A stretch of 64,000 nucleotides of DNA, from positions 1,736,001 to 1,800,000 of the forward strand of contig NC_092650.1 in assembly GCF_032118995.1 (NCBI RefSeq), given 5' to 3'. Of this stretch, positions 2,643-49,700 are shown piece by piece. The DNA is from Asterias amurensis. Lineage: Eukaryota; Echinodermata; Asteroidea; Forcipulatida; Asteriidae. How positions within the stretch are numbered: the stretch's first letter is position 1; every line of letters begins with the position of its first letter. Position numbers and translations under genes: made by a program. The notes beneath the pieces were generated by a model. The model worked only from the letters and a program-made list of their open reading frames with translations. It did no database searches and had not been told where the DNA came from.

Positions 2643-7041
<4,399 letters not shown>

Positions 7042-7822: not shown

Positions 7823-15404
<7,582 letters not shown>

Positions 15405-18907: not shown

Positions 18908-21900
18908 TCAGTCTCGTTTCTTTTCATCCTGCGTCTTAGAAACAGCGCCCTCTTGCTTCAGTTCGGCCTGCGATCTTTCCAAATCCACGTTGCCCTGTGG
19001 AGGGCAGAGGTCACTCTTGAAGTCTGCCTCGATGGTCTCCGGTAGCGTCGCTAGGCGCTGGTACATCGTGAACAACTTGGCGTATTCTGGCTTCTTCTGA
19101 ACATACGCCTTAAATTCATCTGAGAGAGTCGGACGCAAGAAAACGTCATTAGAAGAAAAAATTAGCACACACCGGCCTCGATAACGAGAACGAAAACGTT
19201 ATCAATACATGCCCTCGATTGGTTGAGTAAGCGTGGGCATATTCTGTGCAGAGCAATTCAACCAATAGAATGCGTTCTCTTTGCGTCCTTATCGTTATCA
19301 TTTTCTTTGTCGCTGCAGTGTGACTCAGCCTACACTTTTCTGAAAGGCACTGCAAACAATGAACAAATGAGCTCTTGGATTTAATCCCCAAAGCCGGGTT
19401 CATATTTCCTGCGAATGCGAAGCGAATTTTACGTCACATGCCTGTTTTCGCGCATATGTTTCGCAGGAGATGAGCACATTTCAACTGATGCAAATTATTC
19501 CTTGTAACATCAAAATTTGTATCGCATACGCAAAATGGAATATGAAATGGGCTTGAGTGAACTGGTTAATGGCAACGGATTAGCTATAGACCTTTATCAT
19601 GGTGCAGCTATCTTGAATTCCCCCATTGATGTTACCAAACCGAGCCTGGAAGAACAAAATAGTCTGGTTCCTTTTTGCAAAATGATTATTAGCAATACCG
19701 TATTAGCAATACCAATACTTCCTACCGTATGTAACTGTGCCAGTGTTGTCTGTATCCGCTTGATTGAAGAGTTTTAACGACTCTTCCTCAGCCATACCAA
19801 AAGCAGTGTTCATGATGCTACACATATCATCTGGTAAGATGTAATCCTTATCACCACCAAACATCTACAGACAAAATAAAGATGAGAAAATAGATTTAGC
19901 TGTTGTAAACTGCTTAACAAACAAAAGGACCTACGGTATAAATGCAAAAAAATTAATTAATGACCCAACGTTTCGACCCTAGCAGAGTCTTTCTCAAAGT
20001 AATGACAACACAACAAACATGAACAGGTAACCAAGTGTAAAATAAGCAGTGGAAATACTGCAGTGAAAAAAATGTCAGATTATACCAGCCTGTAAGAACT
20101 ACGAGGGTCAGTCTATTTACATCAGGGCTAGAATTTGGGGGAAAACGCCACAAGACCGCAGGGTTTTTGTAACTCAAAATTTTTTTTTAACTGGACCAGA
20201 ATTTTGAGTGAAAGACCAGAGAAGAAAAATGCCTACACAGGTTAATACTTGAACTGTTTGAACTTGCAAAGCACTAGGACAGGATTTATTTCATTTGAAT
20301 CTGGTTACTTTTAGTTTCAAAATACTCAATATTTACCGAGAATGCAAGCTGCAAAGTCTCATCATTGTTGACAGGTTGGGCAACCAGTGAGCAGCCAATC
20401 ACATACTCTCTGAAATCAATCTTTCCACTCCCATCCTGGAAGAGACAAAAATTACAACAAACTTATCAAACGTCTCAAAATAATAATGATAATAACTAGT
20501 TCTTAAATAGCACATTTTACAATAACCATATCAATGCGCTTTACATTAGTCCCCTGGTCATTGAGCCAATAACATTCCTTTAATCTTTCTCAGCTCACTG
20601 GGGAGAATACAGCCCTTGGCTGCCGTGGCGCTCCAAAGGCTTTTTCATGCACAATATCAACCTCTACCCTTGCAGGTACCCATTTATACCCCTGAGTGAA
20701 CGGAAGCGATAGTAAAGCATCTTGCTCAAAAACACAAGTGTCACGACTGGGATTCAAATCCACACTCTGATGACCTAAAGGAACACGTTGCCAGTTCTTT
20801 TCATACTGAGAAGTCTCCCAAAAAACTGAAAAATCTACTTTACGATAGTAGAATATATAGCAAGACAGTTTTCAATAAGAACAAACTCTACCTTGCAAGT
20901 AGATACACACATGGTGTTACCGCAAACCTCATATATATTGATACCTTACCATGCAATGCCTCAAATCACATAGAACTCCTCCTTACCCTGTCATAGAGAT
21001 TGAAGACCTCCGTTAGAGCTGGGGAGACCGGCAGTTCCAGATAATGAGCCAGATCCTCAATTCCTATATAGCCTCCAGACTTAGCGATATTAGCATAAGA
21101 CTTCAATCTCTCCTGTAAGTTATCCATTTTAACCCTGGACAACGAGAAAAAGAAAATAAATGGTCACTCTTGTGCAAACCTCTTTTTTAAACAGTGGTGG
21201 TAACTTTTCAACAACGACCCGTCAAGGGCAAAAGGAAAATGAACATTAAAAGAATGGCATTAGTGTTCAAATTTTTAATTTAACTACCCCCAGTTTGTGA
21301 GAGGTTCACATACCCATTTTAACAATGTGATAGCTTTTGTGAATTCTGAGAACTCAATAGCGATCTACATGTAATAACAAACAAACATAATATGACTTTT
21401 CTTACCCAAGTTTTGTGAGAAGTTTCTGGAATTCAACGAGGCCAACCTCAATGGGTAGACCCATCTCATGAGCTCTCATCATTAGTCTGCAATCCTCAAA
21501 GGTGTGGTCTGTGACTGGCTTGTCTATTGCACTGAGGAAGCAAGGTACAAGACCCAAGATACATGTAATAAAACAAATGATAGGCAGCAGTGCTATAGCC
21601 ATGGTCGATGGTGCCGGGCAAAGCCCGCCCAGAACTAAACTAATTTCGCCCAGCACTCTGAGCAAAGTACACTTTGCCGCCCAGCACAGTATTCCCTAAA
21701 ATTGCACTTTAGTAATTGCTCCACATCTTACAGCACCTTGTAAACCATTACATGGTGCTTAAGGATTAGGTCTTATAACTCAAACTTCGTCCCACTCCTT
21801 GCAGTAATAATACCTGGCGCTTTGTATCATTTGGCAAAATGTGCGTTATAAATACGGTTATTATAATTATTATTATTATTATTTGGGCTGAAACTTGGTA

Positions 21901-24900
21901 AAAGATTGTAATATACTGAATTGGTCAGGGAAACGCTCCCTGGAACAACATCTCTAAGAACTATGAAATGTCACTGGACGCTTTTCGCAAGCTGTGTGAT
22001 TGATTATGCAGTGTTCCACTTACTTGGCAATGACTGCTCGTACATTCCTTGCAAAGAGCTTGGAGTCTTTTATCTCCTCTTCACTGGGTGTGTAGACTGG
22101 AAGGAAATTCACCTCCAGTTGATTGCTGAAGTTGCACAGGGTAAGCCAAAGAACCGTCAAGCTACAGTCAGAGGAAAAAACAAGGTCATTATTTATATGT
22201 ATTTGTTCAGCCTTCGGGATATATGTTTTTTAGCCCTTGAGAAAGACTCTACTAGGCTCGAAACATCAGGCCCTTTTTTCAATTATTACCATACTAATGG
22301 GAGACTTTGGAACGCTAGGTGGCAGCAGACTTACCAGGTAAATTCTCATCGTTTACGTAGTTCTGAGCATGCATGTATTATCGAGAACAAAGGGTTTTAC
22401 CTGGTAAGTCTGCTGCCACCAAGCGTCCCGAAAGTCCCCCATTTGATTGACACCTACGTGTTTTTTCATAATAAGTAAAATTGGGCTTGACTTACGCTCC
22501 TGGCCCATCCCACGTCCAGGTGAATGTGTCCAATGAATTCTTGTATTGAATTGCCACAGGTTGGACTGGAACCCCCGGGTAGAAAGCACCTGAAACAAAA
22601 CACAAAACAATCCATTTTGAATAATATGGTATATATACAAAAATGTTCCAAATACTTTTCAGGTTTCCAATAGAAGTGCCCTTTGCAAAATGAAAACGGC
22701 CTTTTCCTCTCAAAGATGAAATTCCAAGCCTGATTTATTTCTTTAGGCAAAAACATTTGCAACCAAAGCGCACCATAAATTGCATTTAAACAGTCCAAAA
22801 TATTATATACAACAATTTTTAATCTACAGAATGCCCCAAATCTGACCTCCTTTGAATGTGATGAGGCATGATCCATTGGTACAGGTGCCCTCTGGAAAGA
22901 TGGTGATCTGAGGCCAGTCGCTGTCCGGATCACATCGTCGTTTGATCTCGTTGATTGTCTTCAGCCTAGAGTTGGGATCCGTCCTTGATACGTAGACAGG
23001 TTGTAGGCAATCAACTAAGGCTGGATTAGAGTAGAGACGGGATAGGGGGGGGGGCAGAACAATGTATCTAATTATTAAAGGTTCACGATGGTTACGCACA
23101 AAACTAAAAACAAGGGGGCAAAAAGAGTACGGAAAATTAAGGAAAAGAACAGACTTTTTGAGAGAAAGTGACCTTTGAGAAGAAATGTTCTCATTTTCTT
23201 TAATGAAAAACCTGGGCATAAGAATAACATTATTGCAAAATATGGAAATTTCCAGGAAAATTATTAAAAGTAATTTGTGAGTTTTAGGGGTTTATAAAAA
23301 AATAACAACAAATATTTGGATTTTACTTCTAACATCAAATCTTCTTTTGCAAGACTACAAAAAAATTAAGGTTTTTCTAGTGTAAGCTGTACACACATGC
23401 ACAAGGCAGTCAAAATTCATGTCATGCAAATAAATGCAGCCATGAGACGGGGAGGGGAGGGGCATGCTTGGCAATACATACACATTCATGTTATTAAAGT
23501 TAGGTAACTCAGACATGCACTGAATATGTCTAACATTTGTAAAACTCCATCATATTCATAAGTTATTTTTTAAATGTAGCTCCCATCACACGTGTTACAT
23601 TATGAACGGTGAACCGTCTTTAGACGATGTGAATATAATGCAGAAAAAACAATGCAAGTGCATGCAGTCACAACAACCATACAAGTTTATTTCATTTTAA
23701 ACTTGGGCGGGGGGAGAGGGGGGTTTGAACAAAGAATTTACTCGAGTGGGATTCGAACCAACAACCTCCGGAATCGTGCAGGCGCTCTACCAACTGAGCT
23801 ATCTACATGTAGCCCTATATTGGCCGTCCCCCTACTTTGTCAATATCTTTGTTCGGGGTGCCAGTCAGAAGCCACATAAAACTGGGAAGCAGCAGCCAGG
23901 GGATCACCTTAATGGAATACGACTTCTTGTGTCAGTCACAAGGGCAACTGACTGGGTAAATTGTTAAACTGGAAGTTTTTTAAGCACACTTTGTCAGCAC
24001 TCATTTTGGTTATTATCCCCAGACATTAGCCTTAACCAGATGTTGTCCAGTGTGTACCTATTTGACCTCGCATTCATTTCACATGGTGACGCCAGTTAAT
24101 TCACACAAAACAACACTACATGATGAACACAACATTACGCACAACACACGCTGCATGCAGATGGTCAAAAGGGCCAGCTGACACAACATCACCTTGGACC
24201 AATCATAACACAGAACAGCTTACTTCACTGCATGTTTATCCAATGAGACTGTAAAGCCCAGTTTATTCCTGCGAATTTTGGTGACGCAACGATTGTTACG
24301 CGCTCCCTTTCCCTTTATGACGCAGTGAAATTCACTGTGCATGCAGCAGTCGCAGGAAGTAATGACCCGGTCTTAAGACCAGTGGCTGTCTAAGATAGGG
24401 GACCAGTGGCTGTCTAAGATAGGGGACCAGTGGCTGTCTAAGATAGGGGACCAGTGGCTGTCTAAGATAGGGGACCAGTCTAGGTAAATACAGCTGGGCA
24501 TGTTTCCATGACCTCAGTGGTGCGTCCAATGCAAGCAGTCTTTAATTTTCACTCTGACAACAATATCATAACATTTTCACATATGTCATTTGGGTGATTT
24601 CACTGGAAATATGAATACCAGCCGCTGCCCCTTCCCTCCACCAACCTCCCCCTGTCTTACTACTTGAATGCTTCCGTTACAGTACACCTGTATGCCTGTT
24701 TGTGTGTGTTGTGCTGCCATTAAGCCTACCCAGGTCGAAATTCTAGTTGAACCTAGTTAAACTGGATTTAACTGGAACTAGTTGAAAACCAGTTGATAAA
24801 CTAGTTAAACACAGTTAAAACCAGTTGGTTTAATATGGAAAATGGACAGACACCAACTGGTTTATAATTTAAACCTAGATGAACACAGTTAAACCTAGTC

Positions 24901-27900
24901 CAAACCAGTTGGTTAATATGGAAAATGGATGACTTTGGTCACTATCCAGTTGAACCAGTTGACCCCAGTAAACTGGGTTCAACTGGAATTTTGACCCGGG
25001 TATAGACTCCTACATTCAAAAGCCTAGACCATTAACTATTTGTTAACTATTTCTTCCAGCTTTTCTAGACTAAACTTTCTTGAGGAGTCAGGGGTCACAC
25101 AGCAGATGCAGTATTTTGCTAGTTATTAAATAGCATAAAGCCCGGTTCACACTTCCTGTGAATGCGAAGTGATTTTTGACGTCACATGGCTGTTTTCGCA
25201 GCGAATGTCAATTCAACTATTGCGAATTAATCAATGTAAAAATTTGTGTCACATTCGCATTCGCATTCGCATTCGCAGGAAGAATGAAGTGGACTTTAGT
25301 ATCACACACACACACACACACACGCAGGTATGTTTATATAGACCGAGGATTTATCGTTGTTCTCCCATTGTTTGGACATGGTTTATTTTTCAGACATCCC
25401 CATCGGTTTTGTACACAAAACACACAGACACACACACAGTGCCACCTACTTCTGAAAAGAGGGGTTTGCCTATTCTCAATCCGTGATACCCCGCTCAGCA
25501 CCTGATGACCTACAAACACGACCGACGGGTCGAAGAAGCTAGTGTGGGGTGCAATGACCAGAATGTGCGCTTCTGAGGGGGATGCCTGACGACCTTTGAC
25601 CTTGATCCTGTGGAACCCTAGGAGAAAGACGTGTATTCGACCGAGCCGCATCACAACGTTTTGTAGGGTTCTGTAACGGGAGATTTACGAATCGGTCAAA
25701 AACAATGTTTGGCAGAGTTCATTGTCTATAAATAGGAAAAACGGTTAACGATTATTTGGAGGCTGGCTGAATCTGTTGTAAAAAACAATGAAATGTTTGT
25801 TGCAGGTCATCAAGTTCAAAGGTCACCTACAGGGACTCTGCTGTAATAAAGAAATTGAAGGTCAAAATAATGCAATGTATTGCGGAGGTCATCAGGTTCA
25901 AAGGTCATCTGGGACAAATCAACTGAGAGCTATATTGGGTGGAACTAGTGGAACAAACTCAAATACACGGTCTTTGAAATGCCATAGAAAACTGTAGAAA
26001 AATCCAACATATTGAGCAAAGAGAAACTTAGAACGAGATTTTTGTAGATAATTAAGGTATAATTTTCAATTAATTTTAAAAGGTATAAAACTCCAACTGT
26101 AGGCCTACATGTACGTACATTTCTTTGGAACAGTCTTCCTGTGCATATTCGCCAGGCTACTCTGTGAAAAACTCATGTTTGAAGCTGCTTATTTTTAATC
26201 TGCTTACATATTAATATTTGTAATTGTATCTTTCACTTAAGGTATGTTTTATTGTTCTCTTTATATGCAATTACAGGCTTTTGCATTAGGCACTTCACAA
26301 ATGTCTTTATTATTATCATTAATATGAGGAACAGATGTAGCTATCCTCTGTACACAAAGGCATTAATCCATCCTTTAAGTATGAACATTGCCTTGAGACT
26401 ACAACATATTGTGTTTTATATTTATTTATTTCATTACTCGATAATAAAAAGTGTTGAAATGCTTTATACACAAACTAATAAATCTCGCCTGGCACCTGCA
26501 TACAGCTACAGGTGTATTAGTCCAAGGTTCAAATATTGTTAATCCATACAGCAGGAATGTCCTTGGTCTACGGTCCAACAGGGTCAGTGTCCACCCTTCA
26601 ATGACATTTTATTCTGAAATTCATCTATATGCAAGTAACACTTAGGCCAAATAATTATAAAAAAACATGCTTTTAAACGTCCTGCCCTTTGGTAAATAGG
26701 AAGGAGGTTGCCTGGGCTTTAAGCAAAAAATTAAAATCTGAGATGTTAAAATGTATAATTTTTTATGAAAAAGAAAAAAGATAGAGTTCAAAACTCTTGT
26801 TTTTATTTAAAAAAAGAAAAGAGGCAGCCTCTCAAAAGGAAACAGACCGGAACGCTAAACATGTTTTTTTAATGTTTGGGCCGAACAGGTGTTGAACCAC
26901 TGCACTAATGATATGGTCATTATACTGTGTACAATGGTATTGATTGAGCTACCTACCACTTATATTTTTATTACATAATTAACTTTTATTAACCCAGACA
27001 GGGTTTTATTTGTGAACAAACTGAACTAGTGTTGAATAAAAATAACAGGCTGCCTTTACAAAAGCAATTATCTCAGCAGTTGATCTGAACATGCTCCATG
27101 ATCTGAATAAAGAGTTTATTTTATGGTATTATCTTTGGTTAATACAGAAAGCAAGAGATATGTAGTGTTTAATCAGTGATGTTTTGGATTGTTGTTAGGC
27201 TCTTTATACCCGGAAAGCTTCTCCAACATGGGCCATGTGAACTATTCTGAGTTTGTTTAGTAAACCCTTTTTGTTGTGTAGCCAGGGCTCGAGGTCAACA
27301 CTGGACCACAGGCCGGAGGCATGTGATTTTAGCCAGGGGCCAGTCAACATACACTGGGACAAGCTTGGTGCTCATGTGTTTTTCAATTGGATAAATTTCC
27401 TCATTGTGTAATTTCCTTGTAAAAAAAGTTGACTGTGAATTATCTTTCATTCCGCTTTCAAGAGTATCGAAGTATTCTTACACATTGACACTAATGATCA
27501 GATAAATCTCTCTCAGCGCTTGTCCCAAAACAGCTAAAACGTGAAACTGAGTTGATAGAATTCTTCTTGTTTTAATCCGGTCTTGTAAAATATACATTAT
27601 GTATTCTGGTCCAGTGAACATTTCGAGCTACAAACTTTGCAGTTTTGTGGATTTTTTCTTCAAATTCGAGCCTTGGTGGCTCTATCATCATTAGAATCAA
27701 GTGATGGTGCTACTAACATTATTGTGATGATGACATCATGTGCATTGGGATCATAGATCATAGAATTAAATAACTAGATCGGCCACGCGTACATACGCGG
27801 GTTCTGGCATGGGGGCAGCCATTAGCCTATCTCCAATGTGTATCTTCTACCAGCGCGTTCATGCGTGGTTAAAGGCCTACCTCCCATGTTCATTTTCTGC

Positions 27901-30900
27901 GCAATGCCACCAGCACGTCACTTTTAAATGCGTCCATGAAAAAATTGAAATGTTTGTAGGTATTGTATTCTATATCTATGATTTGGATAGTTACCTGAAA
28001 CAAAGTCTCAAACTTCTTACAAATTCTAACAAAAACTAAACAAAAAAATCTAAACTTACAAAATTCAAGATAATACCATATGTAACAAGTAGACTTTGCA
28101 GTGTGCCTGCACGGTTTTACTCTATTGTATTTATTTATTTATTTATTTGCAAGATTCCATATACCCAGACATGCTTTATATCAGTTTGTCAAGTGTTTGA
28201 TCAGTAATCTAAACTTGTCATGCACTAACAGTATGTAAAGTTTGTGATTTACACATCTATAGTTAGGTGCTTGGTATGGAGTAGTGACAGGGTGCAACAA
28301 ACAGTATGATATGAAGCTCTGTTGGTGGGCAGACAGACAGCATGCCCGGCGGAAAGACAGACAGAAACTAAGAGGGAAAAAACCCTTCATAATGATGCAG
28401 CTTCAATGTACCAAACTAATTCCCTCCAGAGATGTGTCTCAAATTTTCACGTGAAGGGAAAGTGTAACTTTGGTTTTTGAAACCATTTGCTTTTATCATG
28501 TACAGTACTAAGAAATAATAATAAAAAAAATTAAAAAAACTTTCTTCCAGACTTTAGCCAAGTGTTGGTAATGTGTCCATAATGTAAAATTACAGAGCTG
28601 CATCATGTTAAAGGTAGACTTTATGACTAAAAATGCACTACTTCTACTTCTACTTATACTTTACTACTCGGCAAAGTCTCATGATGGGATATCACGCCAA
28701 GATTACGCACGCGTTTGACCGATGAAGCAATGAGTACATGCTCAAATGTAGGCAAGTGAAAGATGAAAAAAATGATATAAATGAAGCATGCCTCAACATA
28801 CAACAAGCAACCCAGGCAACCGCAACTATGAACGCTGCGTTCCAGAACTGCGTTCCAAAACACATCATCAAAACCTACGTGAAAGCAATGGGTATTCTTT
28901 CATCCCGGATTGAACAATCACTGTTGGGTAGTCCATCAGATAGAAAATTAGCCCGTCGAAAAGAGTGGTGTGGCAGGCAGCCACAATGACGGGGGCCTCC
29001 TTTTTGGAAGCTTGCCTACCGCGCACGTCAACGCGGTGGAATCCCATCGCAAAAAACATCAACCGGTAGGCAAAACCCATCGGGAACCTGCGTAAAAAAC
29101 TGTGGAAACAAAATCAACAGACCTCAAGTTTAATTTTAGTTTTATTGCGTAACCCCTGACCCCAGACTTACGTTTTGAAAAAAACAAGTGATGAACAGGG
29201 TGAAATGTACACATGAAGTGATGTACATGTATGAATACTGTGAAACAAACACAATGTGGTGCGTACACATAAATGATGCATTCCTTCCAAAATACATTCG
29301 TACAGTATTGCCATAGCTACTAAATGAAAAAAAAAAAAAACTTTTAAAACGAGGCACCTGGCAACTGTGTACCCGTACTGCATACATGTGTTCCTTTTTA
29401 AAGGTCAATTTATTTTACTTCAATAAAGTTGTTTTACAAAGAAAGTGAATCTACATTGCACACATTTTTTTAACAGAACACAAAACTTTCAAATACAATG
29501 TTGAAGTCAAGGTCATTTATATTATTATTAAGTAAAATATATAAAAACTTTTGAACTTGTTGTTTTGTCCATAATGTTTTGTCCATAAATAACATTGTTC
29601 TGACTAAGGCCTATCAATTAAGTAAATAAACATACACACATTACACAACTCTGGATTGTGCAAAATGTGTATTTTCTGGGCACCTGGAATTCGCATTTAT
29701 TTGTTTTACAGCAAATAAATTACACACAACTTTATACAATCACACTACGTGTATTAGTACTGGTATGATGTGTTATCAGCAAATATTTGTTCAGTGATTA
29801 CAATAACTGCCTGTATTTATATTAATAATAATACTGATTGTGTGACATTAAAAAAAAAGTTTCTTCACATGCCCAAAGGGCGAAACAAGCAGCAAACTGT
29901 GGACCAATGCAAAAATTTGTATATATAATATATCTTTTTATTTTAGATCAAATTTATACACAAATCGTCCATAGGATAAACCGTTTGAATGCCCAGATTG
30001 CACAGTGTGGCTCTATAAAGTAAAAAAAAAAACATTCAAAGGACCTTAGTTCATTTCAGATTCCTTAGTTTAGAATACCCAAAAGTTTTAAAAAATCCTG
30101 GAGAGAACTTTCATAACAAAATAGCAAGTGATTAACCATTTCAAGGAAAAACTAAAATGGGTAACTCTGAAATAATTAACTAAAAACCTCCAGATTCAGG
30201 CGCCAGTGCTCTACAAACTTGAATAAGCCCTACATTTAATAAGCCCTATGTTTGGTTGTAATAGGTCACACAAAGGTTGATATGGTTTATCTCTGTGATA
30301 CACGGAGATAAAACCAGGTTCTTTTGCTTAATTTTTTTCCCCTTTTTAGCACATGCTAAAAATGTACTACAAAAGAACCTGCTTTATCCCTCCACAAAAC
30401 CAAGGTTTTAGACAAGATTTTGTAAAAGGGCCTCCAAATTTGGTGGGAATTAAAATAAAAAATTGATGTCCAAATTGTTCTCATAAAAATACAATATAGT
30501 GTAAATTAGAGATAAAATAAGTTGTCAAAACTTAAAGACCCTGGACACTATTGGTAATTGTCAAAGACCAGTCTCACTTGGTGTATCTCAACATTAAATG
30601 CATATATATAATAACAAACCTGTGGAAATTTGAGCTCAATCGTTCATCAAAGTTGCGAGATAATAATGAAAGAAAAAACATCCTTGTCACACGAAGTTGT
30701 GTGTTTTTAGATGCTTGATTTCGAGACCTCAAATTCTAAATCTGAGGTCTCTAAATGAAACTAGTGGAAAATAACTTATTTCTCGAAAACTACTCCACTT
30801 CAGAGGGAGCCTTTTCTCACAATGTTTTATATGACCAACCTCTCCCTATTACTTGTTACCAAGTGACATTTTATGCTAATAATTATTTTAAGTTACTACC

Positions 30901-32747
30901 AACAGTGTCTACTGCCTTTAAACCAGACACCCCTCTGGCTAACACCTCAAACCATCCTACCTCCATGCTCCAACTAAATCCACATCACCCCAATGTATAT
31001 GTTATGTCTCAACTAATTACACAGTAGCACAGACAGGATATCATCAAAAAAGGAAATGTTAATTATTTGATTAAAATGCTGAGACACAGGATACTTATAC
31101 TTACGTGTTACATTGTATTCAAAAGTAATTTTTACTCGTAATTGTTTTGCTAGAAACCTTTTTCTGGTAAGTGGTAAGCATAATTATTTTGTGCTTAGCT
31201 ACATGTACTTTGTGTGCTTCTAAAAGTATCTCAATGAAATTGGGTAAAGGCCTACTATGGTAAGGATTTAACCTCTGAACAAAGTTTCTTTTTTTACTTG
31301 GCCTATTAAGTTTGGTAAGTTTGTCTGTTCACCCTAACCAAACAATGCACTCCTCTGGTGTCCACCATATTTCAGAAAGATTAATGTACTGACCTGCGCC
31401 AACCCATTAGTGGTTGCTGTTCTCCTTCCGTGTCTTTCTGACCAAGAAGAATAAGACGACAGAATATCCAATCAACGGAGAGAAATAAAATGGCCATGAC
31501 GGCACGAAGCGGAGCGATCGTCACTGACATCAAACCGATCTGTTTGGGGTCAAATTTGAACCATTTTGTTAAAAATTCTAAATCATTATTGTGGAAATTA
31601 TTTTTATCAAATTCTAGACTTCAGAAGTGTTACTGCAGTAATGCTTCTCACATTAAAATTTTGGGCCATAAAAACTGAATAGGTTTTTACATTTATACTT
31701 CGAAGTGAAATGTTTCTCAAAATGCTTAAATATAATATCAAAAGCTACTGTAGGCTTCTTACCAATAGTTGCCATTGCTATTAATTTTAAGAGTGAAAAC
31801 CAAACATACCTTCCCTTTAATTGTCAGCCCCTACTACACGTGTATAACACGTATACAAAAAAACACGTAAAAAAAACCATAAAACCAAAACCTTTATCCT
31901 GTTTTCAGATTTCAACCACACTTTGTTTCCTTCATCCTTCACCAGTTTAGACAACTTCCTTCAGAGTCCAATGACAAGTCAAGGTGTAGTATTTTGTAGA
32001 TTGTTAAAAACATATAAATGTTTAACCAACCAAAGTACTATTTTCTACCTTCCACGCACGCCCTTTCTGTTAGTATTTTTATAGGGCACATTTTTCTCTA
32101 AATGTACATACTTCTCCTGGTTTGATTTTAACAACTTTGAATATTGATAAATTTTCAATTCTTGGAGAAAACTCTAAATTTAAAAGCACTTCTGACCCTG
32201 CCATTTTTAGGCTAGAATAGAAATTTTTGTAATATTTAGGGCCTACTAAAATACTATTGTAACTATAATAACAAATACATGATAAATTGGTTTAATTTCC
32301 ATGTTTTTATTACTTTATATATTTATTACTTGATATTACTTGATCAAAGAAATAGTCAGAGAAGTTTAAAGAAGAAAAAAGTTGCATTAATTTAAAAAAC
32401 AATAATAACATTATTTATTTTGTTTTGTTTTACTTTTATTTTTAAAAATAAAATTACAACAAAACAACAACACAACAAACACGAGAAGATCCCATGCCAA
32501 AATCATTAAAAATAGTTTGAGCAAATACTATAGCAACATTGACTCAACTTAAGAATCCTTTAAGAGCTATCTTGCCTTCAGATTAATGCTCATAAGTCAA
32601 AATTGCATTGTAAATACTCACCCTAATCTTATCCGCCAAAGTCAATTTGAGTTTGTGCACAAATGGATTCCGTATCGTAGGCATGATCAGAGATTTCGAT
32701 CGTGGTATCCGCTCCATCATCACATGTTTTCGCGGCTGTTGTTCCAT
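18908..32747 (-). CDS. LPCAT2: Lysophosphatidylcholine acyltransferase (LPCAT1/2 type) with EF-hands and a mutually exclusive exon pair
   Basis: Transfers acyl-CoA acyl chains to lysophosphatidylcholine or lyso-PAF at the ER or lipid droplets. Constitutive exons on the minus strand: 32622-32747, 31394-31539, 22847-23020, 22496-22589, 22024-22161, 21406-21531, 20987-21134, 20337-20435, 19726-19864, 18908-19119. Between exons 2 and 4, one of two 221-nt exons is used (28879-29099 or 25450-25670), giving 540 aa either way (human LPCAT2 544). Features in order: NPFVHKLKLTLADKIR near the start; a membrane segment about 45-75; HX4D at 133-139 (HTTLFD or HTSFFD); FPEGTCTN at 206-213; VTDHTFEDC; a canonical EF-hand loop D390 to E401 (DRDGSGKIDFRE); a degenerate second loop; a third EF loop at 461-472; and C-terminal KKRD, a KKXX ER-retrieval motif. 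IDFREYVIG resembles LPCAT2 more than LPCAT1, but a pre-duplication ancestor of both is possible. Head to head with PARP2. Confidence 0.95.
19391..19555. mobile_element. Inverted-repeat family L copy in LPCAT intron
   Basis: AAGCCGGGTTCATATTTCCTG at the left, then GCGAATTTTACGTCACATG and CATCAAAATTTGTATCGC, shared with 4776 and 25138. Confidence 0.65.
20124..20222 (+). repeat. Interspersed repeat family Y fragment
   Basis: GGGCTAGAATTTGGGGGAAA, CCACAAGACCGCAGGG, TAACTGGACCAGAATTT. The same ordered phrases occur at 43710-43812 and 49113-49533. Confidence 0.55.
20483..20778 (-). mobile_element. tRNA-derived SINE, family G, in LPCAT intron
   Basis: On the minus strand a tRNA-like head with a B box close to GGATTTGAATCCCAGTC, then CGTGACACTTGTG, GGGTATAAATGGGTACC, CACGGCAGCCAAGGGC and a 3' part AAAATGTGCTATTTAAGAAC. 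About 300 bp, the same layout as 42203-42530. Confidence 0.75.
20797..20968 (+). repeat. Interspersed repeat family K copy
   Basis: CATACTGAGAAGTCTCC, CGATAGTAGAATATATAGCA, AAGTAGATACACACATGGTG, TTACCGCAAACC, ACCATGCAATGC, in the same order as at 10150 and 39100. It ends next to LPCAT exon 8. Confidence 0.65.
21718..21882 (+). mobile_element. 5'-truncated SINE family H copy in LPCAT intron
   Basis: CAGCACCTTGTAAACCATTA, GGCGCTTTGTATCATTTGG and GCGTTATAAATACGG, then an (ATT)n tail. Matches the 3' portion of the full copy at 60945-61318. Confidence 0.65.
22297..22441. mobile_element. 145-bp near-perfect inverted-repeat element in LPCAT intron
   Basis: GGTGGCAGCAGACTTACCAG at the left faces CTGGTAAGTCTGCTGCCACC exactly, within longer GGGGACTTT-type ends. 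The arms contain splice-like CAG and GGTAAA strings. It lies 55 bp from the 3' side of LPCAT exon 5. Confidence 0.85.
23540..23870 (-). mobile_element. tRNA-derived SINE with a well-preserved tRNA head
   Basis: On the minus strand GATAGCTCAGTTGGTAGAGC (D-arm and A box) is followed 30 nt later by GGTTCGAATCCCACTCGAG (B box). The anticodon stem and acceptor do not pair cleanly, so it is read as a SINE rather than a tRNA gene. Outer limits are approximate. Confidence 0.6.
24255..24360. repeat. Family L fragment
   Basis: AAGCCCAGTTTATTCCTGCG, then GTGACGCAACGATTG and TGCAGCAGTCGCAGGAAG resemble diverged family L ends. Confidence 0.45.
24379..24480. repeat. 24-bp tandem repeat, about four identical units
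   Basis: The unit GACCAGTGGCTGTCTAAGAT plus AGGG repeats without visible change, with a partial fifth unit (GACCAGT). Lies in the 2.4-kb intron between LPCAT exons 3b and 4. Confidence 0.9.
24728..25003. mobile_element. Inverted-repeat element built of AACTGGTT-type repeats
   Basis: CCAGGTCGAAATTCTAGTTG at the left faces CAACTGGAATTTTGACCCGG at the right. The interior is nearly all CCAGTT/AACTGG words, with GTTAATATGGAAAATGGA occurring twice. Confidence 0.7.
25138..25290. mobile_element. Inverted-repeat family L copy in LPCAT intron
   Basis: AAGCCCGGTTCACACTTCCTG, GACGTCACATGGCTG, then (CATTCG)4 at 25256-25275. Ends CAGGAAG. Confidence 0.65.
25302..25324. repeat. (CA)n microsatellite
   Basis: About eleven CA units close to LPCAT exon 3b, with a second CA-rich patch at 25418-25438. 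Confidence 0.85.
25450..25670 (-). other. LPCAT2: LPCAT alternative exon 3b (catalytic block, HTSFFD version)
   Basis: Encodes LLGFHRIKVKGRQASPSEAH, then APHTSFFD with the HX4D motif, then VSRIENRQTPLFR, which resembles the VSRNENAQVPLIGR segment of LPCAT2. The acceptor is GTTACAG and the donor A|GTAGGT. It is 221 nt, phase 2 in and 1 out, the same as exon 3a. About 18 of 31 residues from GFHR to FD match exon 3a, so the two exons arose by duplication. Confidence 0.9.
26095..26320 (+). mobile_element. LINE 3' end in LPCAT intron
   Basis: TGGAACAGTCTTCCTGTGCA encodes WNSLPVHIRQATL, the typical last residues of a LINE reverse transcriptase, then a 3' UTR with CAGGCTTTTGCATTAGGC. The same UTR is seen at 57130-57310 on the other strand. 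Severely 5'-truncated. Confidence 0.65.
26321..28640. other. Intronic stretch of LPCAT without recognised elements
   Basis: AT-rich intron between exons 3a and 3b. A (TTTA)5 run is at 28128-28148. A diverged family Y-like phrase is at 27289-27360. Any regulatory sequence for the exon 3 choice would be expected here, but none can be named by eye. Confidence 0.35.
28879..29099 (-). other. LPCAT2: LPCAT alternative exon 3a (catalytic block, HTTLFD version)
   Basis: Encodes MGFHRVDVRGRQASKKEAP, then ACHTTLFD with the HX4D His and Asp, then a divergent segment ending KEYPLLS. The acceptor CCACAG after a T-rich tract gives 221 nt. A second in-frame acceptor (ACGCAG) 12 nt downstream gives 209 nt (28879-29087). 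The donor is C|GTAGGT. Phase 2 in and 1 out match exons 2 and 4. The segment after HX4D (TVIVQSGMKEYP) resembles LPCAT1 more than exon 3b does. Confidence 0.88.
30306..30389. mobile_element. 84-bp hairpin element in LPCAT intron 2
   Basis: GATAAAACCAGGTTCTTTTG faces CAAAAGAACCTGCTTTATC around a TTAGCACATGCTAAAA-type inner hairpin. Confidence 0.6.
30532..30921 (+). mobile_element. Full-length inverted-repeat family A copy
   Basis: TTAAAGACCCTGGACACTA to GTGTCTACTGCCTTTAA, 390 bp, with no nested insertion. An inner hairpin ATTTCGAGACCTCAAATTC faces AATCTGAGGTCTC. The best copy for defining the family. Confidence 0.85.
31128..31248. repeat. Family E fragment
   Basis: ATTTTGTGCTTAGCTACATG and CTCAATGAAATTGGGT match the right half of family E. 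Confidence 0.5.
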
Positions 32748-43709: not shown

Positions 43710-43812
43710 TCAGGGCTCAAATTTAGGGGTGAATCCACAATAATACCACATGGCTTGTAGGGAACAATGGTTACTGGACCAGCATTTATTTTACGAGACC
43801 AGAATGTAATGA
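43710..43812 (+). repeat. Family Y fragment downstream of PARP2
   Basis: GGGCTCAAATTTAGGGGTG, TACCACATGGCTTGTAGGG, ACTGGACCAGCATTTATTTT, leading directly into the minisatellite. It begins 45 bp after the PARP2 stop, probably in the 3' UTR. Confidence 0.6.
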
Positions 43813-43832
43813 GAAAGTTTTTTCTACACAGT

Positions 43833-44310
43833 TTAGACGAGTCTTGAGATTTGAGTTCAGATGAGTCTTGAGATTTGAGTTCAGATGAGTCTTGAGATTT
43901 GAGTTCAGATGAGTCTTGAGATTTGAGTTCGGATGAGTCTTGAGATTTGAGTTCGGATGAGTCTTGAGATTTGAGTTCAGGTGAGTCTTGAGATTTGAGT
44001 TCAGATGAGTCTTAGGATTTGAGTTCGGATGAGTCTTGAGATTTGAGTTCAGATGAGTCTTCAGATTTGAGTTCAGATGATTCTTGAGGTTTGAGTTCGG
44101 ATGAGTCTTGAGATTTGAGTTCAGATAAGTCTTAAAATTTGAGTTCAGATGAGTCTTGAGATTTGAGTTTAGATGATTCTTGAGGTTTGAGTTCAGATGA
44201 GTCTTGAGATTTGAGTTTAGATGAGTCTTGAGATTTGAGTTCAAATGAGTCTTGAGATTTGAGTTCAGATGAGTCTTAAGATTTGAGTTAAGGTGAGTCT
44301 TGAGAATGGT
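43833..44310. repeat. 24-bp minisatellite, about 19-20 units
   Basis: The unit GATGAGTCTTGAGATTTGAG plus TTCA repeats with scattered substitutions. An open frame on the minus strand gives an eight-residue period (NSNLKTHL), explained by 24 being a multiple of three. It probably lies in or just after the PARP2 3' UTR. Confidence 0.95.
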
Positions 44311-46766: not shown

Positions 46767-49700
46767 TCATAATATTCTCTTGCCTTGTTTGACCACAGGT
46801 TTCAATCTACCCTTCATATCCTCATCATAAAGTTCCCTCAAATGAACCTTGAGGTGAGCAATATTTGTGAGGTAGTGAGCAGAAATAACAATGATAGGTA
46901 GCTGAACATTCTCACGCAGAAGCGCCAACTTCTCCTCTGCTTCTGGTAAATCAATTTTATTCGCGAGAATGGCGTGAGGTCGTTGTGAGAGACCTTCTTT
47001 GTACTGCTCAAGCTCATACTGAAGATCGTAGAGTTGCGTCCAGGGTTCTTTGGCTGAGAGATCGAGGACATAAAGGAGGCAGCTACAACGCTCGATGTGT
47101 CGGAGGAAGGAGTGACCCAGGCCTCGGTTGAGATGAGCCCCACGGATTAACCCCGGTAAATCAGCAACTGTGGCCAAGAGAAGAGTATAGAAATGCCAGG
47201 GGGTTTGTCAACTTTGATAAGCTCAAGTGATACCATTTATTGATTACACACCAAACAGCGGGATTAGCGCCAATAACAGGATGGATAGGGAACAAGAAAT
47301 TTTCATTCATAAATATCCCAGACAGTTTCTCTACTCCTATTGGTGGAGAGCGCGCCACGTGGCCGTGGGGGTGTTTAAACGGTTGATAATGACCAGTGTT
47401 TATAACCGGTTGGCTTCCGCGTGTCAGGCGCGCAAGATTATCACTCGGAACGCAATTCATAGCTATTAGTATAATCAGTTTATGTGTAGCCCTCGCCTTG
47501 TGGCCGTCCGTCCTTGTGATGTTGGGCATTCTCTCATATAAAGTAGAAATAAACAAATCTTTCTGATATTCTACTGTACCTGCAACTTGTTCCAAGTCAT
47601 CATATTCCACCATTCCTACGTGTGGATTGAGAGTCGTGAATGGGTAGGCGGCTACAGCAGGCCTTGCTCTAGATAATGCTCTCAATAAAGTAGATTTGCC
47701 TGCATTTGGAAACCCAATCTGAAGAGGGAAAATAAATAATGAGTTCTTTATTAAAATTGTTCAAAGTAGCAATCTCCTTAAAAGATATACATGTTCAAAT
47801 TAATACCTATAATAGTAAACTTGCAGGTACAACCACGTGTAAAATCTCTCTTGGAGGAGTGCTGACTCTGAAAAAAAAAAGGTGTGGTCTCAACATTTTG
47901 GAGCAGTGTACGCTGCTCATCTTCAGGAGAAAGCTGACAGAGGAAGCACAGTATCCCAAAGTGTTTGCAAGGTTGGCCGTGACCAAACTAACCCCCAAAA
48001 TGAAAACGTGGTGAGCGGACACTGAAAGAAATTTGAATCACTTCTAGTACAGCTTTTATTTTAACTGGATCATTGAGCTGTAACAGAAAACATCAGACAA
48101 GCTTGTTATATTTTGTCTTATCACATAATGCCACCAAGAGAGTAATTGCCCAATTTGAAGGGAAAAATGACACAAAGTTACTCTTACCAATCCAGCGTGT
48201 GCCATTATTTTGAGTTCCAACGACACCAGAGATTCTTCACCAGGAGTTCCCCGTCCTGCAATCCGAGGGGTTCTGTTCGATGGTGTCGCAAACGATTTAT
48301 TGCCTCGACCTCCTTGACCTCCGCGGGCAATGACAAACTAGAGAGAGAGAGAGAAGAAATATTTCTCAACTCAACAATCCTATGAAAGTATAATTAGTTG
48401 TGACTGGTTTCTCTACTCTTTGCGTAAACCCCCATCACACCAGACTCGTTCTCCCTCTGCTCTGAAAAATGTAGCTGATTGTACTTAAACTATGGACTAG
48501 TAGTAGCAACTTTTACGGTCTTTTTTAAGAACTTCATGAGCGGGCTCGGGCAGGTTTGATTGGCATGGTGCTCAAATTTGCTCCAACGACCATCCCGCCC
48601 TGCAGTTTGACAGAGTGTCATGATACTTAAATAGGAGAAGGACATACTCTGAAAGGAATTGACGAACTCGGGAGGTACTGGACAGGATGCGGCTCGACTT
48701 CATACGGATGTACATGTGCACACAAAACGCGTCAGTAAGCTATACGTTCCAGCCAGACCAAACCTATTTTAATATTTTCTTAGGACGGGTTCGGGCGTTT
48801 TGAGAACTAGTTTGGTGTGACCCAGCCTTTAGGTTGCATTTTGTTGAGTATTATTTTTTGCTAAATAGCTGAAAGAAATTAGGAAGATGTGTGACTCTTG
48901 AAAGCTGAACTCTCCTCACCTGATCCCCTTCTGACTCCAGATCTACTACAGTGACCTTGTCATCTTTGACGACTGTTCCGACTGGAACCTTAAACATAAA
49001 AAAACAGATAATTGTATTAAAAAACACATCTGTGATCAAGTTTAGGATGAAAAAATGGTTCTTGGATTGACAGTGGCTAAGTAAAAAAAATGTATGATGG
49101 TTACATAAAAGACATGGGCTTGAATTTGGGGTAAAATTCCACAAAATCACAGGGCTTGTACATGTAGCCCAAAATTATTACTGGTTCAGAATTAATTTGC
49201 AAGACCAGAATCTTTATAAGAACATGTTCAAAGAAAAAGCTTTCTACAGAGTTTAACATATAATTTTATTTTATTTAAAAAAGCACTACTAAGAAGAGAA
49301 GATTATCTCATTTGTGTTATGGGTTATATTTTGAGACTCATTATTCAATGGAGTTGTTTGACCAGCCTCACAGTCAACATTTGAGCATAATTTCTTTCTG
49401 TTCAAGATATTAATTACAAAGTTAGGTATTATTATTCAATTGACAAGCACAAGACCACCGAACATGTCTGGTCAAGAGTTTACCGGACCAGGGCTAAAAA
49501 CACTTGCCTTTAGTCCAGTGTCAAATATCGAGCCCTGGAAAAACAGAAATATAAAAGACCACTGACTATAACAAAAAAACAGGGTGGACTTACTTTAACA
49601 ATTGTATGAGCACCATTTTTGCCACTGCTGTTGTTCTTTGCTCCTGGATGTCCATGTTCTGCTTTGTAGTGTGGTCTTACTGCCCCCAGAGACTTTGTGC

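Follow-up and report, generated by a model that had tools for sequence, protein, structure and literature searches.

A probable pair of mutually exclusive exons in a sea star LPCAT gene exchanges the catalytic block and may descend from a bilaterian exon switch later divided between vertebrate LPCAT1 and LPCAT2

The vertebrate lysophosphatidylcholine acyltransferases LPCAT1 (LPLAT8) and LPCAT2 (LPLAT9) belong to the AGPAT family, have the same domain order (acyltransferase, then EF-hands) and are about 40-50% identical. They are the products of two genes. Here we describe a gene of the same type from the sea star Asterias amurensis, found in a stretch of 64,000 nucleotides (contig NC_092650.1, positions 1,736,001 to 1,800,000; hereafter the window), in which a single gene appears to switch its catalytic block by splicing between two exons, 3a and 3b. 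The blocks of the two vertebrate enzymes match the two kinds of block, types A and B, that we distinguish among such exons. The bacterial lysophosphatidic acid acyltransferase PlsC of Thermotoga maritima has, to our knowledge, neither EF-hands nor an alternative exon. Its structure (PDB 5kym, with the source organism as named in the part of PMC8753187 available) was the one PDB entry whose sequence matched the acyltransferase portions of the two sea star isoforms at E <0.01. The Drosophila LPCAT (CG32699) has been described as an enzyme with LPCAT activity and the single orthologue of LPCAT1 and LPCAT2 (PMC4293825), and the strings "splic" and "exon" do not occur in the available main text of that article.

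Mutually exclusive tandem exons are well known, and it is this pair that is new, with an unusual location and history. In Mhc, Dscam and the voltage-gated channels there are likewise tandem homologous exons of matching phase from which one is chosen; unlike these, the sea star pair swaps the module that forms the active site of a lipid enzyme, and the vertebrate paralogues appear to have divided the pair. In fish, alternative exons of one gene, mitf, have been fixed in separate duplicate genes, compared with which the LPCAT case would be much older and concerns a catalytic block. Many human genes kept tandem-exon events in both gene copies, according to the part of PMC9741552 consulted. Among the open-licence papers listed by our searches, supplements being outside these, we found neither an account of exon switching in LPCAT nor this proposal for how LPCAT1 and LPCAT2 arose; catalogues of mutually exclusive exons may therefore list the gene. 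LPCAT does not occur in the main text, as far as available, of PMC9741552, PMC5740500 or PMC3303723, and its splicing is not discussed in the accessible part of PMC3929608. The preliminary description of this locus, made from the sequence, knew of no earlier account; this agrees with our search of the literature, but the database models of Asterias rubens already hold both isoforms, so annotation pipelines have met the pair before.

The gene lies on the minus strand of the window (32747-18908) and has a complete coding frame with 11 coding positions, the third of which is duplicated. Exons 3a (29099-28879) and 3b (25670-25450) are 221 nt long apiece, have AG/GT borders, are entered in phase 2 and left in phase 1, and the isoform with either of them is 540 amino acids long. 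If 3a is spliced to 3b, a TGA follows six codons on, 1122 nt before the last junction, and if both are skipped a TGA follows three codons on, 911 nt before the last junction; transcripts of either kind should consequently be destroyed by nonsense-mediated decay. The coordinates, lengths and phases given in the preliminary description all held when the borders were checked, as did its stop after six codons for the double inclusion, its stop within four codons for the double skip and, by the complete gene model, its 540 residues with either exon. The two blocks are identical at 24 of 71 aligned residues, and the remainder of the two isoforms is the same sequence. The acyltransferase model PF01553 scores 60.7 bits with the 3a isoform and 52.7 bits with the 3b isoform (Pfam cut-off 23), and five EF-hand Pfam models are above cut-off in the C-terminal part. 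By reading, motifs 2, 3 and 4 are QPVYVSR, EGTC and VPVQPV, in exons 4-5, the first of these being without the initial G of the general pattern GxxFxxR. The KKXX-type tail at the protein end presumably has a role in retrieval to the endoplasmic reticulum.

No third copy of the block exon scoring better than E 0.026 was found in the window. When the animal's own genome (491.5 Mb, 23 contigs) was searched with isoform 3a, all 12 matches fell within this single locus, the best candidates being scored, and no second LPCAT1/2-type gene was found at that level. A Pfam search of the genome gave nine acyltransferase matches on other contigs, which lie outside this result. The sequence outside the block is identical to the Asterias rubens protein at 465 of 466 aligned residues, and the two A. 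rubens models correspond to the two isoforms, P0001 (X2) carrying 3a and P0003 (X1) carrying 3b. Judged from the sequence, 3a and 3b are very probably a genuine mutually exclusive exon pair, and the gene that contains them is the only one of LPCAT1/2 type found in the animal. The earlier proposal of a pair that swaps the catalytic HX4D block is supported by the borders, phases and stops together with both A. rubens models. An annotation artefact, in which one exon is unused or is part of another gene, would draw on the fact that the pair in this animal is known from sequence alone; we regard it as very improbable given the good borders and matching phases, the modelling of both isoforms in A. 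rubens and in Patiria, and the occurrence of the same swap in 15 species.

A structure predicted for the 3b isoform of A. rubens (P0003; mean predicted local distance difference test score 75, and 86-95 over the block) indicates what is exchanged. In this model exon 3b encodes a helix (89-107), two strands (112-116 and 127-131) with the HX4D loop, and then a further helix (138-143), a strand (150-154) and the start of another helix (161-169), so that by this prediction the swapped exon is a structural module and not a mere loop. For LPCAT2, the part of PMC8753187 available to us places motif 1 at 146-151 and motif 2 at 184-189 (Table 3), takes His146 as catalytic and models Arg166 in contact with the phosphate of lyso-platelet-activating factor. 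Arg166 is His146+20, and the residue at this distance from the histidine is arginine in all three LPCAT2 proteins checked. The corresponding column of our alignment is position 154; of 115 blocks of type A, 114 have K there, and of 72 blocks of type B, 64 have R (196 of 207 rows counted, the 11 two-block models being omitted). As read from these alignments, the switch exchanges the catalytic loop and the proposed head-group contact and leaves motif 2 unchanged. Motif 2 was considered as a swapped part and rejected: the block carries AGPAT motif 1 only, and the statement in the preliminary description that motif II lies inside it was mistaken, motif 2 (184-189 in LPCAT2, in the portion of PMC8753187 seen) falling in the constant exon 4.

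The exon pair is not confined to starfish. A homologue search with a query block of type B gave 1682 proteins, and the best 120 (P0001-P0120) were compared all against all with the two window isoforms, 122 sequences in total, and filtered for pairs with a backbone more than 97% identical and a block less than 80% identical. Twenty-seven protein pairs passed, and the block was less than 45% identical in every one of them. Seventeen are within one named species, representing 15 species of five phyla among these sequences: the sea stars Asterias rubens and Patiria miniata, the acorn worms Ptychodera flava (three versions) and Saccoglossus kowalevskii, the brachiopod Lingula anatina, the arthropod Macrobrachium nipponense, and nine molluscs (Gigantopelta, Dreissena, Mya, Haliotis, Mizuhopecten, Ruditapes, Saccostrea, Pomacea and Biomphalaria). 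One more pair is oyster-like (P0068, P0078); these are whole coding frames on contigs of at most 1.6 and at most 3.5 kb and are probably transcript-derived. Each of the remaining nine pairs either joins two species or includes a window isoform. In 17 of the 18 listed pairs the exchanged stretch runs from residue 91 or 92 to 162-165, the exception being Patiria with an incomplete gene model, and the Pomacea and oyster-like pairs differ elsewhere too (34 and 2 alignment columns). A search for the same pair in echinoderm and hemichordate loci had been proposed as a check, and the pair is present there and in at least five phyla. Two blocks occur within one protein in 11 of 205 database models. 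In ten of these, from Mytilus coruscus and nine insects, the first block is always type A. Eight of the second blocks score nearer B, and those of Zootermopsis and Leptosia are either ambiguous or closer to A. The eleventh, P0040 of Anopheles atroparvus, has 884 residues and appears to join two tandem LPCAT-type genes.

Some species show further variation on the pair. Ptychodera flava has three blocks in otherwise identical proteins (P0014, P0011 and P0019; X1, X2 and X3), a three-way switch, and X1-like blocks are also found in Saccoglossus and Glandiceps. In the crinoids, the Antedon proteins P0010 and P0025 have a backbone 71% identical and blocks of types A and B, and Anneissia P0020 combines a backbone like that of one Antedon protein (81%) with a block like that of the other (69%), which would fit a shift in exon choice or a division of the pair there too. 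The LPCAT-type proteins P0063 and P0135 of Babylonia areolata come from contigs of different length and have a backbone 60% identical; one carries a type A block, the other a block of undecided type that is closer to B, and gene duplication may have divided the pair here as well.

To describe the two types we used a profile A trained on 18 rows and a profile B trained on 21, from protostomes and amphioxus only. FastTree trees of the 73-74 residue block, the first of which had six near-duplicates removed and the Mytilus coruscus two-block row left out for length, split into A and B with support 0.91 and 0.88. The second FastTree tree, the later trees and the approximately unbiased (AU) tests used 36 genes hand-picked from the 205 proteins plus the window (48 blocks in the AU test set, and 55 block rows for the placement of 3a). 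A mixture-model tree of the block brought 23 of 25 A blocks together (72/92), and the best tree with all A blocks united was equal to or better than the free tree of 48 blocks and at the top of the set in both models. When a single origin was compared with an origin group by group, the joint AU test over eight groups gave a log-likelihood difference of 132 (p 3e-5, LG+G4) and, for the same trees under LG+C20+F+G4, of 118 (p 1e-4); for molluscs, arthropods and vertebrates together the differences were 72 (p 0.0015) and, again with the same trees, 62 (p 5e-5) under the two models. Origin group by group is thus rejected jointly, as it was in an earlier run with four trees.

The vertebrate genes were examined with the same profiles. 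A further search, whose query was an amphioxus backbone with a consensus type A block and which thus favours A by design, gave 1413 proteins, of which the best 120 were listed and 85 were new. All 85 of the new listed matches score type A by profile; they include 54 vertebrate entries, 48 of which are named LPCAT1 or PCAT1, and one entry (P0156) is named LPCAT2, yet its flanking sequence is LPCAT1-like by eye. Conversely, the 18 vertebrate entries among the best 120 of the type B search are all type B, by 8.6 to 26 bits (13 named LPCAT2, 5 hypothetical). In paired comparisons with 12 protostome A/B pairs, cross-species pairs (Mytilus, Penaeus, Macrobrachium rosenbergii and Palaemon) being omitted, all six LPCAT1 blocks examined were closer to the A exon than to the B exon in every one of the 12, with margins of 59 to 67 score units. 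A backbone tree from which the block was excluded makes LPCAT1 and LPCAT2 sisters (99/97), joined by amphioxus (98/98), which indicates that they arose by duplication on the vertebrate line. From these sequence comparisons we conclude firmly that the LPCAT1 block is type A and, as the weaker half of the argument, that the LPCAT2 block is type B; the simplest account would be that each vertebrate gene copy kept a different exon.

These results suggest the following explanation, to which we assign a probability of roughly three in four: an ancestral bilaterian exon switch that was later divided between two vertebrate genes. One exon duplication before the protostome-deuterostome split would have given types A and B, which many invertebrates would retain in one gene; in vertebrates the gene would have been duplicated with one exon type per copy, A in LPCAT1 and B in LPCAT2, and in sea stars 3b would be type B and 3a probably a fast-changed type A. 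In the sea star, the spliceosome would pick 3a or 3b, both or neither shifting the frame to an early TGA, and each exon would provide a helix on the membrane side, a pair of strands, the catalytic HX4D loop and a further strand bearing the equivalent of LPCAT2 Arg166. Motifs 2-4 and the EF-hands would be constant in both isoforms. Because the catalytic module is exchanged while these parts stay the same, we infer that the switch most likely alters substrate choice, through the acyl donor or the lysophospholipid used, with location and calcium control presumably kept across the isoforms.

Several points weigh against this explanation, and the first group of them concerns the single old origin. 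None of the single-group AU tests rejects a group-specific origin (p 0.065-0.21 with LG+G4 and 0.087-0.131 with C20; 0.08-0.26 in an earlier run), so that the claim rests on the groups taken together, and in the mixture-model tree B is no supported clade. The type calls are partly circular, trained rows being among those counted and the searches having used type B and type A query blocks. Raw similarity also favours A for exons that are B by profile (Ptychodera X2 in 10 of 12 comparisons, Patiria 3b in 9 and Acanthaster 3b in 8), perhaps because A exons change more slowly. The ten two-block models, which we read as prediction errors that reveal genomic order, may instead represent real double inclusion, and the splicing of 3a and 3b in this animal is itself deduced from its sequence and the A. 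rubens models. Convergence would account for some of these observations: the catalytic exon would have been duplicated separately in several phyla, with exon phase and module-like borders making the duplicates usable, and the likeness of the A blocks would reflect shared constraint. The tests just mentioned use only 73 columns, the third hemichordate version and the unplaced 3a mean that extra duplications may have happened, and the part of PMC9741552 seen reports considerable evidence that tandem exon pairs in other genes have converged. We nevertheless consider it unlikely, given its joint rejection under two models, the K/R hallmark common to several phyla, and the order of the blocks in the Mytilus coruscus and insect models, with type A first and the second block nearer B in 8 of 10.

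A second group of points concerns the division between the vertebrate genes. By raw similarity, five LPCAT2 blocks lean clearly to neither type, A being the better match in 7-9 of 12 pairs, and in the mixture-model block tree LPCAT2 attaches weakly (43/81) beside the A group and not within a B clade. In the backbone tree the order of phyla is poorly supported, the sampling is without LPCAT4, and the rivals that put amphioxus with LPCAT1 alone or with LPCAT2 alone are only marginally rejected (p 0.025 and 0.042). No type A block of amphioxus was present among the best 120 of the type A search, where six amphioxus rows lead the list, all of them B. All this would fit a pair that is real in invertebrates but was not divided by LPCAT1 and LPCAT2, the LPCAT2 block being a separate or original form and only LPCAT1 matching an invertebrate type; the vertebrate-only AU tests (p 0.09-0.24) and the restriction of amphioxus to type B among the matches listed point the same way. 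This alternative seems to us improbable, if somewhat less so than convergence, since the profiles call B in every one of the 18 vertebrate entries mentioned above, and LPCAT2 lies on the B side in the FastTree block trees and has arginine at the hallmark position. The remark in the preliminary description that splicing here does what gene duplication does in vertebrates comes close to the explanation proposed here, LPCAT1 as type A being its firmer half and LPCAT2 as type B its weaker one.

The placement of the sea star exons is the third matter. Asterias 3b scores as type B with the profiles (-37.8 bits), all 12 paired comparisons agree, and 3b of Patiria and of Acanthaster is type B by profile; its suggested resemblance to LPCAT2 is to this extent confirmed, but it is qualified by the raw comparisons of the Patiria and Acanthaster exons given above. 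For 3a the profile score is neutral in Asterias (-0.5 bits) and the paired comparisons favour A in 9 of 12 (10 of 12 for Patiria 3a, which also keeps the type A lysine in an AK pair). Exon 3a is upstream of 3b, as type A is in the Mytilus coruscus model and the nine insect models. On the other side, Asterias 3a has Q instead of K at the hallmark position and is a long branch, for which the trees allow three positions: within A, next to hemichordate X1 and next to starfish 3b. The mixture-model tree puts it among B blocks, and the grouping of 3a with 3b in starfish was not rejected by an AU test (p 0.257). The earlier view that 3a leans to LPCAT1 is therefore retained weakly, from the paired comparisons and the Patiria lysine, but raw similarity favours A for B exons too and the trees do not place 3a. 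That 3a is probably a fast-changed type A exon is the least certain step of the explanation.

Between the two Asterias species, 6 of 74 residues of 3a have changed compared with 1 of 466 in the backbone (p 3e-5), and the difference from 3b (1 of 74) is not significant (p 0.12). The excess of change at 28879-29099 would be compatible with relaxed or with positive selection on one alternative exon. Perhaps 3a is a weak or regulatory isoform whose inclusion mainly tunes output, and this rapid change, the C that replaces P before the catalytic H and the Q at the phosphate-contact position in Asterias would all be consistent with such a role. We think this doubtful, however, because the H and D of HX4D are retained, 3a is 74% identical between Asterias and Patiria, and the Pfam score of the 3a isoform is above that of the 3b isoform.

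If the division of an ancestral switch is true, it would explain how the lung-surfactant and platelet-activating factor enzymes of humans, both medically important and the second making an inflammatory lipid, came to differ, two ready-made alternative active sites perhaps having been sorted by evolution into two genes. We lean, with less assurance than for the exon switch and its division as such, towards a more specific proposal, namely that what distinguishes LPCAT1 (surfactant, C16:0 phosphatidylcholine) from LPCAT2 (platelet-activating factor) predates both genes, going back to an early-bilaterian exon pair and reciprocal exon loss, and that one block of about 74 residues would set the substrate choice of both. 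For swap experiments, one exchangeable block and one charged residue within it can be named. By the same reasoning, many invertebrates that have one LPCAT gene would use splicing to select one of two modes of phospholipid remodelling, and studies of "the" invertebrate LPCAT may have missed this choice.

As to how one exon is chosen, exclusion by an intron too short to be spliced has no support, 3208 nt separating 3a from 3b. A docking/selector pattern was not found at the length and seed used, shorter or gapped pairings being outside this search, and the one weak inverted repeat (29 nt, 72%) has both arms between 3a and 3b. Two TG-repeat runs are present in the intron directly downstream of 3b (25300-25450). 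TG-rich runs of this kind are bound by CELF or TDP-43 proteins, and a candidate element is included in Table 1. The intron between 3b and exon 4 also contains a perfect 24-nt tandem repeat of 4.3 copies (24377-24479).

Table 1. Coding exons of the Asterias amurensis LPCAT1/2-type gene and a candidate regulatory element (positions within the window)
Feature	Position	Strand	Remarks
Exon 1, start codon at 32747	32622..32747	-	42 residues match A. rubens P0001/P0003
Exon 2, constant, leaves in phase 2	31394..31539	-	
Exon 3a, alternative catalytic block with HTTLFD; leans weakly to type A	28879..29099	-	
Exon 3b, alternative catalytic block (HTSFFD, GVSRIEN); type B by profile, LPCAT2-like	25450..25670	-	
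5' splice site of 3b and the TG-rich run after it; putative regulatory element	25410..25449	-	by eye
Exon 4, constant: motif 2 (QPVYVSR), motif 3 (EGTC)	22847..23020	-	
Exon 5, constant: motif 4 region (VPVQPV)	22496..22589	-	
Exon 6, constant	22024..22161	-	
Exon 7, constant	21406..21531	-	
Exon 8, constant	20987..21134	-	
Exon 9, constant, EF-hand region	20337..20435	-	
Exon 10, constant, EF-hand region	19726..19864	-	
Exon 11, constant, stop codon; protein end KKRD, KKXX-type tail	18908..19119	-	

Elsewhere in the window, an open frame on the minus strand (5966-6157) matches glycosyl transferase family 2 (PF00535) and by eye is dolichol-phosphate mannosyltransferase-like, one on the plus strand (9569-9952) matches dihydrouridine synthase (PF01207), and another on the minus strand (46767-47177) matches the 50S ribosome-binding GTPase family (PF01926). 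A 152-codon open frame at 43786-44244 consists of an LNSNLKTH-like repeat and is probably a minisatellite.

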